Below are positions 17,468 to 22,384 of a stretch of DNA of 64,000 bases, piece by piece (within the stretch, counting starts at the first letter, position 1; each line of letters begins with the position of its first letter). The position numbers were made by a program, and so were the translations under genes. Source of the stretch: Flavobacterium sp. SUN046 (GTDB lineage: Bacteria; Bacteroidota; Bacteroidia; Flavobacteriales; Flavobacteriaceae); assembly GCF_028867965.1 (NCBI RefSeq), contig NZ_JAPQNT010000003.1, forward strand, positions 186,001 through 250,000. The letters are read 5' to 3'. The notes below the pieces were generated by a model. That model had not been told where the DNA came from. It was given only the letters and a program-made list of their open reading frames with translations, and did not search any database.

Positions 17468-18478
17468 ATGGAAACACGCAACACTACATTAGGAGAATTT
17501 ATCATTGAAAACCAAAATGCTTTTCAGTATTCTTCAGGAGAATTATCACGAATTATCAATTCAATTAGGCTCGCAGCCAAAGTTGTAAATTACAAAGTAA
17601 ATAAAGCTGGATTGGTCGATATTGTTGGCGCTGCTGGCGAACAAAATATTCAGGGTGAAGACCAGCAAAAATTAGATGTATATGCCAATGAAGTTTTTAT
17701 TCAAACGCTTATTAATCGTGAAATTGTTTGCGGAATTGCGTCTGAAGAAAACGATGATTTTATTACTGTTGCCGGAAGCGATAAAAGTCATAATAATAAA
17801 TATGTAGTTTTGATGGATCCATTGGACGGCTCTTCTAATATTGATGTTAATGTTTCGGTTGGAACTATTTTTTCAGTTTATAGACGTGTCACACCCATAG
17901 GAACTCCAGTTACATTAGAAGATTTTTTGCAGCCAGGAATTAATCAGGTTGCTGCCGGATATGTTATTTACGGAACTTCAACTATGTTGGTTTATACTAC
18001 TGGTTATGGCGTGAACGGATTTACTTTGAATCCTGCAATTGGTACATTTTATCATTCGCATCCTAATATGAAGTTTCCAAAAGATGGAATAATTTACTCT
18101 ATTAATGAAGGAAACTATGTTCATTTTCCGCAAGGAGTAAAAAATTATTTAAAATATTGTCAGCTTGAAGAAGGCGATAGACCCTATACATCTCGTTATA
18201 TTGGAAGTTTGGTTTCTGATATTCATAGAAACATGATTAAAGGCGGAATTTATATTTATCCAACAAGTACTAGAGCGCCAAAAGGAAAGTTACGTTTGTT
18301 ATATGAATGCAACCCAATGGCTTTTATTGCTGAACAAGCCGGCGGAAAAGCATCAGATGGATTTAATAGGATACTAGAAATTCAACCTACAGAACTGCAC
18401 CAACGCGTTCCGTTCTTTTGCGGAAGCTACAATATGGTTGAAAAAGCAGAAGAGTTTATGAAAACATCTAATTTGTAG
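17468..18478 (+). CDS. fbp: Fructose-1,6-bisphosphatase, class I
   Basis: A 336-residue gluconeogenic enzyme that converts fructose-1,6-bisphosphate to fructose-6-phosphate. The metal/phosphate signature [20 protein letters not shown] lies near residues 117-136. GIASEEND supplies the other metal-binding acidic residues, and [14 protein letters not shown] and the [18 protein letters not shown] block form the sugar-binding end. No fusion or truncation is seen. It diverges from the M48 gene across 135 bp. No terminator is visible after it, so some read-through into the GTPase cluster is possible. Confidence 0.96.
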
Positions 18479-18577: not shown

Positions 18578-18937
18578 ATGTCTAAAAATCAACCTAAAGA
18601 AAACGAAGCAGTAATAAATCCAAATGAATCTGCTCAAAGATTAGAAGCAATCAAAAACTTGATTTTTGGTGAAAATATTCAACAAATTGATCAAGAGTTT
18701 CAATCGATTAAAAATCATATAGAAAAAAGAAAAGAGGAATTAGAAGATTTTATTGCAGAAACTCGTAAAGAATTAAATGCAACTATTGACAATTTAGCCA
18801 CCGATTTAAACATTAGAATTACTGATTTAGAAAACAGTATGAATGATAAAACCGACGAGTTAAATCATAAAAAAGTAGATAGAAATTTGCTTGGAACTCT
18901 ACTTGTTTCAATGGGTGAAAAGATAATGAAGGACTAA
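18578..18937 (+). CDS. Coiled-coil protein, first gene of the small-GTPase cluster
   Basis: A 119-residue soluble protein, almost entirely charged helix from about residue 15 to 90, with a heptad-like pattern (IDQEFQSIKNHIEKRKEELEDF, ETRKELNATIDNLATDL). It ends in a conserved-looking hydrophobic tail (NLLGTLLVSMGEKIMKD). No catalytic motif is visible. It is 10 nt upstream of the roadblock-like gene in the same direction, so it probably acts with the GTPase, perhaps as a scaffold. That role is inferred from position only. Confidence 0.75.
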   Translation: MSKNQPKENEAVINPNESAQRLEAIKNLIFGENIQQIDQEFQSIKNHIEKRKEELEDFIAETRKELNATIDNLATDLNIRITDLENSMNDKTDELNHKKVDRNLLGTLLVSMGEKIMKD

Positions 18938-18947
18938 TTCATTTTCT

Positions 18948-19757
18948 ATGACAGATTCAGAGAAATTAATTAAGCTCAAAGAACTTCTTCTTACTGAGGA
19001 TAGAGATTTTGCGCAAAATATTCTCGAAAAGCTTGATGAAATAGAAAGCACAATTAATACGCCAGATAAACTTTTAATGAAAGTTGATGGCATTATTAAC
19101 AAAAAACTGGAGACCTACACCGAAGAAATTCCAGATAAATTAGGACCGACAATCTCTCAAGCGTTATCATCAGAAATTAAAAATTCGCAAGATAAAGTTG
19201 TTGATATTCTGTTTCCAATAATTGGTAAAATGATTAAAAAATACATTCAGCAAGAGATGAAAGCCTTGTCGGATGCTATTAATAGTCAAATTCAGAATGC
19301 TTTTTCAGTTCGAGGTTTTAAACGCAAAGTAATGTCGAAATTTACTGGAGTATCAGAAGATAAAATGTTACTAGCTGAATTGAATGAACCTAAAATTGAA
19401 CAGATTTTTATTGTAGAAAAAGGCTCAGGTTTAATAATTTCTAGCGCATCTAGACAAGAAAGTATTGATGAAGATATGATTGCTGGAATGTTAACAGCAA
19501 TTAAAAGTTTCGTTGAAGATGCTTTCAAAAAAGAGCAACAAAGTTTAGAATTAATTCAGTACGAGTTGTTTGAAATTTATATTCAAAATTTTACAACCTA
19601 TTATTTTGCAGTTGTAATTTCTGGAGGGTTTAATACAGGTTTTAAAAATACATTAGAAAATAATTTATTTGATTTTGTTTCAGAAAACATGAAATCAGAT
19701 ACTATTGACAAAGAAAAAGTTACCTCTAAATTAATTGTTTTACTAAAAGATGATTAG
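18948..19757 (+). CDS. Roadblock/LC7-like protein partnered with a small GTPase
   Basis: A 269-residue protein. The N-terminal half is helical and includes LFPIIGKMIKKYIQQEMKAL (about residues 86-105) followed by VRGFKRKVMSKFTGVS. The C-terminal half (about 145-250) has the layout of a roadblock/LC7 fold: IEQIFIVEKGSGLIISSAS, DEDMIAGMLTAIKSFVEDAF, then strands ending YYFAVVISGG. From memory, longer bacterial proteins with this architecture carry a C-terminal OmpA-like domain, which is absent here. The stop overlaps the GTPase start by 8 nt. By analogy with MglB and MglA it may regulate the GTPase. Confidence 0.72.
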   Translation: MTDSEKLIKLKELLLTEDRDFAQNILEKLDEIESTINTPDKLLMKVDGIINKKLETYTEEIPDKLGPTISQALSSEIKNSQDKVVDILFPIIGKMIKKYIQQEMKALSDAINSQIQNAFSVRGFKRKVMSKFTGVSEDKMLLAELNEPKIEQIFIVEKGSGLIISSASRQESIDEDMIAGMLTAIKSFVEDAFKKEQQSLELIQYELFEIYIQNFTTYYFAVVISGGFNTGFKNTLENNLFDFVSENMKSDTIDKEKVTSKLIVLLKDD

Positions 19758-20244
19758 TTCTAAAAAAATAGTTTTAGTAGGGCATTTTGGCGTTGGTAAA
19801 TCTTCAATTATGAGAAGATTTGTTCAAGACACTTTTTCGGACAATTACACTGTTACAATTGGCGTTCATATTTTAAAAAAAGAGATTGTAATACAAGGTT
19901 TAAACTTAACTTTAATTATTTGGGATATTGAAGGAAAAGATGATATTCAAAAAGTTAGAAATTCCTATTTGCTTGGAACTTCTGGGTTTATATATGTAAT
20001 CGATCCAACTCGAGTTCAAACATTTGAACGATTTAATCAGGAAATAGATTTCTTAAAAATTAACTATCCAACAGCCAAAATAGTATCAGTAGCTAATAAA
20101 ATGGATGTAGTTGATCAGCTAGAATTCAAGAAAATATTGTCTCAAAAAATGATATCTATAGATTATTTTGCAAGCGCTAAAACAGGTAACGAAATAGAAA
20201 ATTTATTCCAATATTTAGCAATGAAAATAACACAAGATGTTTGA
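19750..20244 (+). CDS. Ras-superfamily small GTPase (Rab/MglA-like, bacterial)
   Basis: A 164-residue single-domain GTPase. G1 P-loop GHFGVGKSS is at 11-19. The switch I Thr is Thr36 in TVTIGV. G3 is DIEG at 59-62, G4 NKMD at 116-119 and G5 SAK at 142-144. The residue after G3, Gln61 in Ras, is Lys63, so intrinsic hydrolysis should be low or depend on another residue. There is no lipidation Cys at the C-terminus. It overlaps the roadblock-like gene and the kinase gene by 8 nt each, which implies translational coupling. Expected output is a GTP-controlled switch linked to the kinase; the cell process is unknown. Confidence 0.9.
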   Translation: MISSKKIVLVGHFGVGKSSIMRRFVQDTFSDNYTVTIGVHILKKEIVIQGLNLTLIIWDIEGKDDIQKVRNSYLLGTSGFIYVIDPTRVQTFERFNQEIDFLKINYPTAKIVSVANKMDVVDQLEFKKILSQKMISIDYFASAKTGNEIENLFQYLAMKITQDV

Positions 20245-21328
20245 GGAAATTAGAAATAAATACCTTTATAAAAGAACGCAAATTGTTGAACTCAATAAAA
20301 GCGGTATCATTCAAGCATCAGATGATTTAATTTATCCTATTAGAACTCAAACATCAATAACTGATTTTCATCCTTTTTTTGAAACTATCGTTTTATTAAT
20401 AGAACAAGAAAATAAAGATTTCACTTTTAGTTGTATTCACATTGATATTAATTCCAATCAAAAAATAATTGATGTTATATTCAACACAGGATCCAACCAA
20501 GTTCATCCTTTTCTGATATTTATTGATTTTACAGAACACTATAACAATTTTCAAAGTATTGCTCAAGAAAAAAATGAATCTGTATTAAGTTTTCATTTAT
20601 CTGAATTGAAGAATCAGCAATTGGAATCTGAAAAAAGTTTTAAGAATAAATTCCTTGCTAATGTTAGCCACGATTTAAAAACTCCATTAAGTGCTTCGCT
20701 TTGGTTTATTGCAATGTTAGAAAAAAGTGAGGTTACTGAACAACAAAGACAAATAATTGAATTATTAAAAGAAACAGCAACATTAGTAAAATCTTTAGTT
20801 GACGATATTTTAGATCTATCAAAAATTGAAGTTGGACAAATGGAACTTCAAATTGATGATTTTAATTTTATTGAGACTATTACTTTCATCGAGCAAATTA
20901 TTAAAGTTAAAGCCGAAGCTAAAAAATTAAATTTCATTTTAAAACAAACTTCGGATGTTCCTGAAATGATTAAAGGTGATAAAGTGCGCGTTATTCAAAT
21001 TTTGGTAAACTTGTTAGATAACGCAATAAAATTTACTAAAATTGGTACAGTAATACTTGAATTAGGTGCTGCTAAAATATCAAATCATACACTATTATTA
21101 AAAATAAAAGTCATCGATACAGGAATAGGAATTAATTCATCTAATAAAAGCGAAGCATTTCAAAGTTTTAAAAAACTTCATGATTCTAAAAAAATTGAAG
21201 GTTCAGGTTTAGGGTTATCAATTGTATCCAATTTAGTAAATCTAATGAATGGAAAAATAGATTACACATCAGAAGTTGGAGTAGGAACTACATTTGAAGT
21301 AGTATTGCCTTTTACTATTGATGCTTAA
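20237..21328 (+). CDS. Histidine kinase of the small-GTPase cluster, no membrane segments
   Basis: A 363-residue kinase. Residues 1-110 form a PAS-like sensory region without transmembrane helices. HisKA follows with phospho-acceptor His145 in NVSHDLKTP. The ATPase has the N-box NLLDNAIKFT (Asn262), G1 DTGIGI (294-299) and G2 GSGLGLSIV (322-330). All catalytic motifs are intact. No response regulator gene is next to it, so the phosphotransfer partner is elsewhere or absent. It is the last gene of the cluster, coupled to the GTPase by an 8-nt overlap and followed by a strong hairpin. Direct sensing of the GTPase state is an attractive but unproven model. Confidence 0.9.
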   Translation: MFEEIRNKYLYKRTQIVELNKSGIIQASDDLIYPIRTQTSITDFHPFFETIVLLIEQENKDFTFSCIHIDINSNQKIIDVIFNTGSNQVHPFLIFIDFTEHYNNFQSIAQEKNESVLSFHLSELKNQQLESEKSFKNKFLANVSHDLKTPLSASLWFIAMLEKSEVTEQQRQIIELLKETATLVKSLVDDILDLSKIEVGQMELQIDDFNFIETITFIEQIIKVKAEAKKLNFILKQTSDVPEMIKGDKVRVIQILVNLLDNAIKFTKIGTVILELGAAKISNHTLLLKIKVIDTGIGINSSNKSEAFQSFKKLHDSKKIEGSGLGLSIVSNLVNLMNGKIDYTSEVGVGTTFEVVLPFTIDA

Positions 21329-21335
21329 AACTAAA

Positions 21336-21370
21336 AAATCCAATTTCTCAAGTGGTAAGAAATTGGATTT
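21336..21370. terminator. Bidirectional terminator between the kinase and the TlpA-like gene
   Basis: Perfect 13-bp arms AAATCCAATTTCT and AGAAATTGGATTT with a 9-nt loop in the 63-bp convergent gap. T-rich sequence follows on both sides, so it can serve both genes. Confidence 0.75.
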
Positions 21371-21391: not shown

Positions 21392-22384
21392 TTATTTCAA
21401 TAAAGCTTCTAATTTTTCGGTTAATTTAGCATCCGATGGTCTTTCTGCATCTGCACTAACAACTTTTCCTTTAGGATCAATTAATATAAATCTTGGAATT
21501 GAGTTTATCCCAAATGATTGAATAAAAGTCGATGTCCAATTTTTATCAGCAAATAATTGAACTCCACCAAGTTCTTTATCAGTTACAAATTTTTTCCATT
21601 TTTCATAATCTTTGTCTTCATCTACCGATATACTTACAAATGTTATGTTTTTATCATGAAATTTTTCTTCAACTTTTTTCAAAGAAGGAATTTCGCCACG
21701 GCATGGTCCGCACCAAGTTGCCCATACATCAATGTAAACATATTTTCCTCTTAAATCTTCAAGTTTAGTTTTTCCACCAGCATGATTTACATAGTCAAAT
21801 GACGGTGCTACATTACCTTCAACATTTTTTAGTGCTTGCGCCGATTTGTATTCCATTTGCATTCCAAAAAATTCTTGCGTCATGTTTTTCTTAACTTGAG
21901 CTTTAAAATTGGCATCGAATTCACCTTTTTCTAATTTTTCAAAATCGGCTTTCTTTTTAACTTCAAATGCTTGATAAAATGAATCTTTATCTTTACTCAT
22001 GTTTTCAGTTGCAAAAACTTCGGTTTGTATAGAATGTTCAGCTAGAAAGTTATTTTCTCCAGATCCAATTCCTGTAAAAGAAAGAGTTTCGTCAAACTCT
22101 TTAGCATTCATTTTTAATTTTAAATCAAAACCTGGTTTTAAAAATAATTGTGCATATTCAGTACCGTCAAATAAAACATAAAAACCATCTTTAACGTCGA
22201 ACTTGTCAGAAAAAATGCCTTTTTTATCAATTTTAATTTCTTTAATAGTTTGATTTTTAGCGTCTTTTATATAAATAACGTCTCCGTTTCTATTGGCAAT
22301 ATCTGCCTGAAAACTAACATTGCCTTGAGAAAAACCAACGTTAGATAAAATAATAGCGAATAATGCGAAATACAATTTTCTCAT
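21392..22384 (-). CDS. Exported TlpA-like thioredoxin-fold protein with N-terminal DUF4369-type region
   Basis: A 330-residue protein with a signal peptide ending GFSQ. The first about 100 mature residues are strand-rich (VIYIKDAKNQTIKEIKIDKKG) and match the layout of the N-terminal domain common in Bacteroidota TlpA-like proteins. The C-terminal thioredoxin domain has WATWCGPC with the redox pair in WCGPC at 224-228 and the cis-Pro motif in NSIPRFILID. It should work as a periplasmic thiol-disulfide reductase. It is a single gene facing the kinase cluster. Confidence 0.9.
   Translation of the reverse strand: MRKLYFALFAIILSNVGFSQGNVSFQADIANRNGDVIYIKDAKNQTIKEIKIDKKGIFSDKFDVKDGFYVLFDGTEYAQLFLKPGFDLKLKMNAKEFDETLSFTGIGSGENNFLAEHSIQTEVFATENMSKDKDSFYQAFEVKKKADFEKLEKGEFDANFKAQVKKNMTQEFFGMQMEYKSAQALKNVEGNVAPSFDYVNHAGGKTKLEDLRGKYVYIDVWATWCGPCRGEIPSLKKVEEKFHDKNITFVSISVDEDKDYEKWKKFVTDKELGGVQLFADKNWTSTFIQSFGINSIPRFILIDPKGKVVSADAERPSDAKLTEKLEALLK

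Follow-up and report, generated by a model that had tools for sequence, protein, structure and literature searches.

Within a 64,000-nucleotide stretch of the Flavobacterium sp. SUN046 genome (contig NZ_JAPQNT010000003.1, positions 186,001 to 250,000; hereafter the window), four adjacent genes encode a coiled-coil protein, a 269-amino-acid (aa) protein, a Rab-like small GTPase, and a histidine kinase. We are somewhat inclined to regard this locus as a Group 1 Rup module, in which a GTPase controlled by a longin-domain protein acts on the kinase, with Gln110 of the kinase serving in trans. According to this proposal, the longin-domain protein, together with the coiled-coil protein, would control the nucleotide state of the Rab-like GTPase, and the signal would run from the GTPase to the kinase, i.e., the GTP form would dock on the kinase N-terminal domain and linker helix and alter the autokinase or phosphatase state of the kinase. 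Gln110 of the linker helix would provide the catalytic Gln missing from most of these GTPases, and the effector would therefore also end the signal. The gene set, its order, the motif pattern, and, by comparison with relatives, the apparent loss of a receiver can be read from the sequences. Many of the counts below refer to a close set of 109 GTPase and 116 kinase rows, which are not independent because some genomes were fetched twice and some have a second kinase. The features are as follows:

18578-18937, + strand: coiled-coil protein, 119 aa, first gene of the set (open reading frame (ORF) call; weak coiled-coil-type Pfam matches)
18948-19757, + strand: putative longin-domain protein, 269 aa, without OmpA (ORF, Pfam, homologue search, model, fold comparison)
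19392-19754, + strand: predicted longin-like domain, residues 149-269 of the 269-aa protein
19750-20244, + strand: Rab-like (Rup-type) small GTPase, 164 aa (Pfam Ras, PF00071, 3.6e-27)
19936-19938, + strand: GTPase codon 63, Lys in place of the catalytic G3 Gln of Ras/Rab (DIEGK; alignment of 109 rows)
20237-21328, + strand: histidine kinase, 363 aa, without a receiver (HisKA, HATPase_c)
20237-20527, + strand: kinase N-terminal input domain, residues 1-97 (model: PAS/roadblock-class order a-b-b-a-b-b-b, then a long helix)
20564-20566, + strand: Gln110, where the linker helix begins, directly after the input domain (116/116 kinases of the close set)
20669-20671, + strand: phospho-acceptor His145 (alignment; His in 114/116 rows)

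Loci with this gene content have been described as Group 1 Rup systems, Bacteroidetes included (Wuichet & Sogaard-Andersen 2014, PMC4316618). Like these systems, the window locus combines a Ras-like GTPase that has a DxxG motif and lacks the G3 Gln, a coiled-coil protein gene, a protein with a domain of unknown type (in Group 1 a membrane helix and OmpA often come after it; the window protein is homologous to OmpA-bearing proteins), and, as the fourth gene, a signalling protein (typically a histidine kinase or a cyclic di-GMP enzyme) with an invariant N-terminal Gln. In its genes, its G motifs, and its N-terminal Gln, the locus agrees with Group 1 Rup, and the type of cluster is therefore already known. 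The same paper reports the invariant Gln in the N-terminal region of the signalling protein together with the missing G3 Gln, and speculates that a GTPase-activating protein supplies the missing Gln in trans; it also states that no member of the Rup family had been characterised as of 2014 (PMC4316618). The identity of Gln110 with this published Gln is our assumption. The window locus departs from Group 1 as described in that we read the unknown domain as a longin, no OmpA is present in the protein, and the kinase is without a receiver; in related loci, sigma54-activator, cyclase-type, and kinase-NtrC outputs are found as well. To the published Gln, the present analysis adds a probable place and further output classes.

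The four-ORF layout was first described in an unaided reading of the DNA (the sequence-only reading), and both 8-nucleotide overlaps it contained, between the 269-aa and GTPase genes (19750-19757) and between the GTPase and kinase genes (20237-20244), are found in the ORF list and the sequence. That reading expected the gene order to be conserved and would have been refuted by an order found in this strain alone. Among named genomes (404 relatives, of which the best 80 were taken), the order coiled coil, 269-aa family, GTPase, and kinase input domain is kept in 79 of 80 loci, and a strain-specific arrangement is thereby ruled out. The single exception (L124) has an extra input domain in between; in two of the 79 (L121 and L132), the next input domain in line is that of a short input-domain-only protein. 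All four gene types were also present in 23 of 24 further neighbourhoods, the 24th having a broken 269-aa gene. In a family survey, 26 of 120 genomes carry the 269-aa family (including the window's own, one broken copy, and one edge-cut copy), and in a genus scan that scored the 10 best kinase candidates per genome, both the kinase (E <= 1e-60) and this family occur in the identical 9 of 199 genomes, among them that of the window. Relatives of the 269-aa protein in the protein database number 1227. A homologue of the 119-aa protein is the recognised gene immediately upstream of the longin gene in 80/80 loci; this position, together with weak coiled-coil-type Pfam matches (25 of 34 matches shown), from which the coiled coil itself is called, agrees with the coiled-coil protein having been placed first. 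The fixed link between GTPase and kinase is likewise upheld by order and co-occurrence across loci.

The assignment of the GTPase to the Ras type also stands: in addition to the PF00071 match, the best 60 of 841 matches to solved chains are all Rab-type GTPases. Its motifs read GHFGVGKS (G1), DIEGK (G3), NKMD (G4), and SAK (G5); G1, G4, and G5 are kept, and the G2 position is Thr in 100 of 109 rows and Ser in the other 9. In the genome of the window, the GTPase of this locus is the single free-standing one of the Ras type; three weaker PF00071 matches fall in longer frames. The G3 Gln is missing from 95 of the 109 rows and from all 14 distant GTPases read (E, S, G, or D instead; L156 left out). 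The 14 close-set GTPases that have it (L032, L074, L089, L090, L097, L103, L104, L108, L109, L110, L112, L113, L119, and L127) go with kinases that form one group around Algibacter and Tamlana on the kinase tree, every one with a receiver without Asp. Since these rows are one clade, they provide no test of a link between the G3 Gln and loss of the receiver Asp, and the combination is possibly a coincidence.

Gln110 is found not only throughout the close set but also in 9/9 proteins in which a homologous input domain is joined to another output. One is the kinase of G627, whose input domain matches the profile at E 1.7e-17; the others are three sigma54 activators, a Nostoc kinase, two cyclase-type proteins, and two 307-aa proteins, which as a group reach an hhalign probability of 96.9 (E 1.7e-10) and have Gln in the Gln110 column in 8/8 cases. 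Gln15, present in 114 of 116 kinase rows, was also considered as the shared Gln and was rejected, since the sigma54 activators have Glu in its position. A Gln motif at a comparable position is also seen in 8/8 NtrB-like kinases, by motif alone; the pattern contains Q, so that misses are uncountable, a flaw from which the hhalign alignments are free. Two points weigh against the proposed role of this residue. The N-terminal parts of the eight NtrB-like kinases have no detectable homology to the input domain (hhalign probability 0.4-11), and their Gln therefore counts as suggestive only. Moreover, 14 of 109 GTPases possess a G3 Gln while their kinases still have Gln110, so that Gln110 may serve another purpose. 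Nonetheless, the conservation of Gln110 and the fact that duplicated GTPases are accompanied by an input-domain-only protein make kinase residues 1-110 a plausible GTPase contact site.

These duplications occur in L035, L037, and L039, where the order is longin, GTPase 1, a 198-200-aa input-domain protein without a kinase core, GTPase 2, and kinase. L041 and L124 keep the short input-domain-only protein, and GTPase 1 is missing; L121 and L132 are duplicates among the loci with such a protein. Across seven rows from five genomes, the short proteins have Gln15 in 7, Gln110 in 6, and Asn113 in 2. In trees, L036, L117, and L130 supply both the GTPases with which GTPase 1 groups and the input domains with which the short protein groups (supports 84 and 85), a pattern that fits a GTPase and its input domain having moved as one unit.

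Different outputs are found behind the coiled-coil, longin, and GTPase genes, in keeping with the proposed module. Kinases, mostly with a receiver, fill the fourth place in the close set, and L166 has only a kinase there. G627 has a kinase-receiver-Hpt protein in this place (and a peptidoglycan-binding protein upstream in the operon), L155-L157 have a sigma54 activator (two scanned, L156 by alignment), and five loci have a kinase followed by a receiver protein, which is of the NtrC type where scanned (L160 and L163). A Nostoc plasmid carries a kinase with a receiver. A Mesorhizobium plasmid row is annotated as hypothetical protein, OmpA family protein, Rab family GTPase, and adenylate/guanylate cyclase, and a Rhizobium plasmid has an equal layout.

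Several features count against a coupled module. The GTPase/kinase gene overlap occurs in just 29 of 80 loci, compared with 69 of 80 for the longin/GTPase overlap (both counts are mechanical because ORF starts were called mechanically). The GTPase-kinase unit is divergent from the longin gene in four distant loci (L160, L161, L162, and L166), in G330, G349, and G444 the longin gene has no adjoining GTPase, which lies elsewhere in the genome, and the trees on which the pair argument depends have moderate supports (84-96). The separated and divergent genes would suit an arrangement in which the genes are merely neighbours under a shared promoter, with kinase and GTPase in separate pathways. We nevertheless consider this very improbable, since the order is kept in 79 of 80 loci, in the two of the three split genomes that were inspected, a 307-aa protein whose input domain is homologous comes after the GTPase and is itself followed by a kinase, and the input domain adjoins the GTPase even where there is no kinase core.

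The kinase has six Pfam matches, among them HisKA (2.1e-16) and HATPase_c (1.1e-23), in agreement with its earlier description as a histidine kinase; neither a receiver nor PAS is among them. With the next gene reached at 21392, there is scant room for a receiver remnant after the kinase stop. The element order of the input domain fits PAS; no PAS was found among 20 Pfam families matched by 27 members, and structure comparison barely covered the region. One member weakly matches Robl_LC7 (0.021), the input-domain profile found four designed-barrel chains in the PDB (best 0.0089, across 27 positions), and a fold search with the kinase model was dominated by kinase cores.

Most relatives' kinases are 500-523 aa long and carry a receiver. 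The kinase tree comprises 108 distinct kinases, with receiver columns left out; it has long branches and 32 of 105 forks open, and only fewest changes were counted. On it, the presence of the receiver changes twice, five kinases being without one (the window's, L062, L063, L067, and L069), and among the 103 kinases with a receiver, Asp versus not-Asp changes four times (Asp 63, S 14, N 12, K 9, A 4, T 1); such counts cannot separate gain from loss. The receiver is intact in the window's nearest rows (L064, L060, and L061); loss therefore explains the pattern more simply, and the receiver-less state of this lineage is probably derived. The sequence-only reading had regarded the absence of a response regulator as a telling trait; a complete kinase without one was rejected as the ancestral state, since most relatives' kinases carry a receiver, and the absence appears instead to be a derived loss. 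With the receiver gone in this lineage, phosphate would go to a separate receiver, or the state of the kinase would be read otherwise. A second full kinase copy follows the first in L029, L073, L076, L080, L081, L084, L091, L092, L096, L098, L101, L102, and L107; these copies have a receiver Asn for the phospho-acceptor Asp, and in two of them (L076 and L091) the kinase His is also replaced.

The changes in the receiver also bear on whether the signal might run in the opposite direction. In such a scheme, the kinase would be an input signalling to the GTPase, as posited for conservons on the grounds that they lack a response regulator (PMC4316618), and the receiver would be dispensable for that reason. 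The two changes in receiver presence and the four in the receiver Asp would suit this scheme. However, the sigma54 activators, the cyclase-type protein, and the kinase-plus-NtrC pairs found in the same place look like outputs, and the kinase His is retained in 114 of 116 kinases and the receiver Asp in 63 of 103. We therefore regard a kinase upstream of the GTPase as unlikely and retain it as an effector. A LytTR response regulator is not supported as a general partner: by profile, a receiver protein lies upstream in 3 of 80 loci. In these it adjoins the coiled-coil gene (L110:7769-8485, L127:7726-8442, and L097:7771-8487) and has LytTR where scanned (L110 and L127).

The 269-aa protein, which the sequence-only reading called roadblock/LC7-like, offers the more surprising possibility. 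The longin domain is best known from controllers of Rab switches in nucleated cells. The 269-aa protein has four Pfam matches at E <= 1, none over cut-off and none Robl_LC7, and the predicted structure of its C-terminal part has a roadblock/longin-class element order. The earlier assignment thus survives at the level of the fold class, whose absence would have refuted it, but not as an MglB-type protein. The modelled order, b-b-a-b-b-b-a-a with an extra helix at the C-terminal end, is that of a longin, and the 50 rows that a fold comparison lists by Z have a longin fold, with alignments that run through the extra helix to residue 269; adaptor and SNARE longins score as well as Rab guanine nucleotide exchange factor (GEF) longins. 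Robl_LC7 (PF03259) gave 12 matches in 17 family-holding genomes, none at the 269-aa gene, and is absent from the 20 Pfam families matched by 29 longin pieces, and on this basis an MglB-type roadblock identity was rejected; a Pfam scan of 40 members, in which 25 of 89 families are shown, cannot exclude Robl_LC7. Among Rab-GEF longin profiles, weak matches to PF19036 occur in 3 of 40 members (best E 0.0012), in 3 of 29 longin pieces, and at this gene in 2 of 17 genomes, and weak matches to PF19031 occur in 3 of 29 pieces. Judged by the predicted fold, the 269-aa partner resembles a longin more than it does an MglB-type roadblock.

A number of results pull the other way. Curated longin profiles gave no match over cut-off in the 17-genome scan, and the window protein itself has no longin Pfam match. 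Among the 40 members scanned, PF19036 ranks only fifth by members, after DUF6120 (14), DUF445 (7), Apolipoprotein (4), and YtzH (4), although these four may follow the helical N-terminal half of the family. By best E among the 29 pieces, KfrA_N (0.00085), DUF2172 (0.002), and TFCD_C (0.0098) surpass the longin families (0.012 and 0.019), and the window's own piece matched TFCD_C only. The longin profile scan also rings in 2 of 14 control genomes, and a third match is unrelated to this gene. Searches of PDB sequences found no significant longin (TRAPP BET5 was fourth of 16 at E 0.47 and first of 7 at E 0.21). Foldseek, finally, places Rag-Ragulator entries at rank 3 and below, with Ego3 at 24, p14/MP1 at 28, archaeal Roadblock3 at 35, and an MglA-MglB entry at 48, all of which are taken here to be roadblock entries. 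The protein might accordingly be a divergent MglB- or Ragulator-type roadblock, and the locus an MglA/MglB-like system to which a kinase was added. The two folds are closely related and Foldseek does not separate them here, as its entries at ranks 3-48 illustrate, and the model has a helix ahead of strand 1 (residues 137-145). This identity nonetheless seems doubtful to us, given the lack of Robl_LC7 at this gene in 17 genomes and in 29 pieces, the longin-fold entries aligned through the C-terminal helix, and the G3 motif, DIEGK here versus TVPGQ/GTPGQ in MglA (PMC4316618).

The sequence-only reading pointed to an OmpA part in longer relatives, correctly so: OmpA was found in 10/10 long relatives scanned (of 12 such loci), two of which also have BON, and in L162 it scores 27.0 bits, just below the 27.2 cut-off. 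The window protein has no OmpA match in Pfam. At the scale of the phylum, 14 of 395 genomes, the window's included, hold the 269-aa family, the distant ones with frames of 598-738 aa. A profile of the long relatives, for which 7995 candidates were scored, found 5238 further proteins, and Alphaproteobacteria, Gammaproteobacteria, Planctomycetota, and Rhodothermota are named among the 120 listed. Some short relatives of 263-269 aa without a listed domain (P0006, P0019, P0033, and P0067) go under the name "cell envelope biogenesis protein OmpA", and P0053 and P0059 are named hemerythrin; both names seem to be annotation carry-over, the former from longer relatives. In L154, whose longin protein lacks OmpA, a 238-aa protein with a peptidoglycan-binding domain (L154:5220-5936) is encoded a few bases upstream of the coiled-coil gene and is a possible substitute envelope link. 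An ECF-type sigma-70-family sigma factor gene and a 450-aa protein adjoin the OmpA-longin gene in L158 (8261-10199).

A connection between a GTPase and a histidine kinase is not new to prokaryotes, contrary to what the sequence-only reading had supposed; it is preceded by the Group 1 Rup loci of 2014 (PMC4316618) and by conservons, which join a histidine kinase, a roadblock protein, and a GTPase (PMC13343842). The idea of coupling is thus reasonable, and older than was assumed. Conservons are the nearest characterised analogue (PMC13343842; PMC13015309; PMC8510531): the conservon/AGPS operon (CvnA-D) has a histidine kinase, a GTPase partner, and a Ras-like GTPase, and no response regulator. 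They differ in having an MglA-family GTPase with a GTPGQ-type G3, CvnC, and an MglB-type roadblock (PMC13343842; PMC4316618), whereas DIEGK and no Robl_LC7 are found here (no search was aimed at CvnC). With MglA/MglB, the locus shares a small GTPase adjoining a roadblock/longin-class protein; the GTPase motifs and the partner profile differ, G3 being DIEGK rather than TVPGQ or GTPGQ, and a role in motility or polarity has no support at this locus. Compared with Mon1-Ccz1, Fuzzy-Inturned, BLOC-3, and TRAPP, the window protein is bacterial, with one predicted longin per chain, a long helical N-terminal part, an adjoining kinase gene, and putative GEF activity.

Two features flank the set, one of them directly after the kinase stop, between convergent genes:

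21336-21370, - strand: 13-bp inverted repeat, terminator-like on this strand

This is the sole terminator-like site found; shuffles expect 0.8, and the repeat is therefore not beyond chance. Directly upstream of the four genes lies a fructose-bisphosphatase gene (17468-18478), which has the same position in many relatives; we know of no functional link between it and the set.

In the literature consulted, longins do not figure as bacterial partners of Rab-like GTPases. Lokiarchaeum has been described as the first prokaryote found with longin domains, although a table in the same paper lumps "Longin/Roadblock" together as present in bacteria (PMC4917890). Longins are held to derive from MglB-type roadblocks, with a circular permutation between them (PMC3521125). 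The small GTPase genes of the Asgard strain MK-D1 reportedly do not, as a rule, share operons with longin genes (PMC10933270), and a bacterial operon of this kind would therefore be more telling, if the fold is confirmed. In a limited check of the open literature (most subscription papers and all supplements lay outside it), we found neither a longin reading of the unknown domain, nor repeated receiver decay or a GTPase-input-domain pair, nor the Gln in sigma54-activator and cyclase-type outputs. We regard it as an even chance that true longins, of the type regulating Rab GTPases in eukaryotes, are widespread in bacteria and share operons there with Rab-like (Rup) GTPases; the longin-Rab regulatory pair would in that case predate or lie outside the archaeal-eukaryotic line, and outputs (kinase, sigma54 activator, cyclase) would have been swapped behind one Gln-bearing linker on which the GTPase docks. 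If this is true, the presence of a bacterial longin and a Rab-like GTPase in one operon would make the question of longin origin testable with purified proteins, and the Rup family would gain a concrete hypothesis, in which a longin is the regulator, a single Gln serves in docking, and the outputs are interchangeable.

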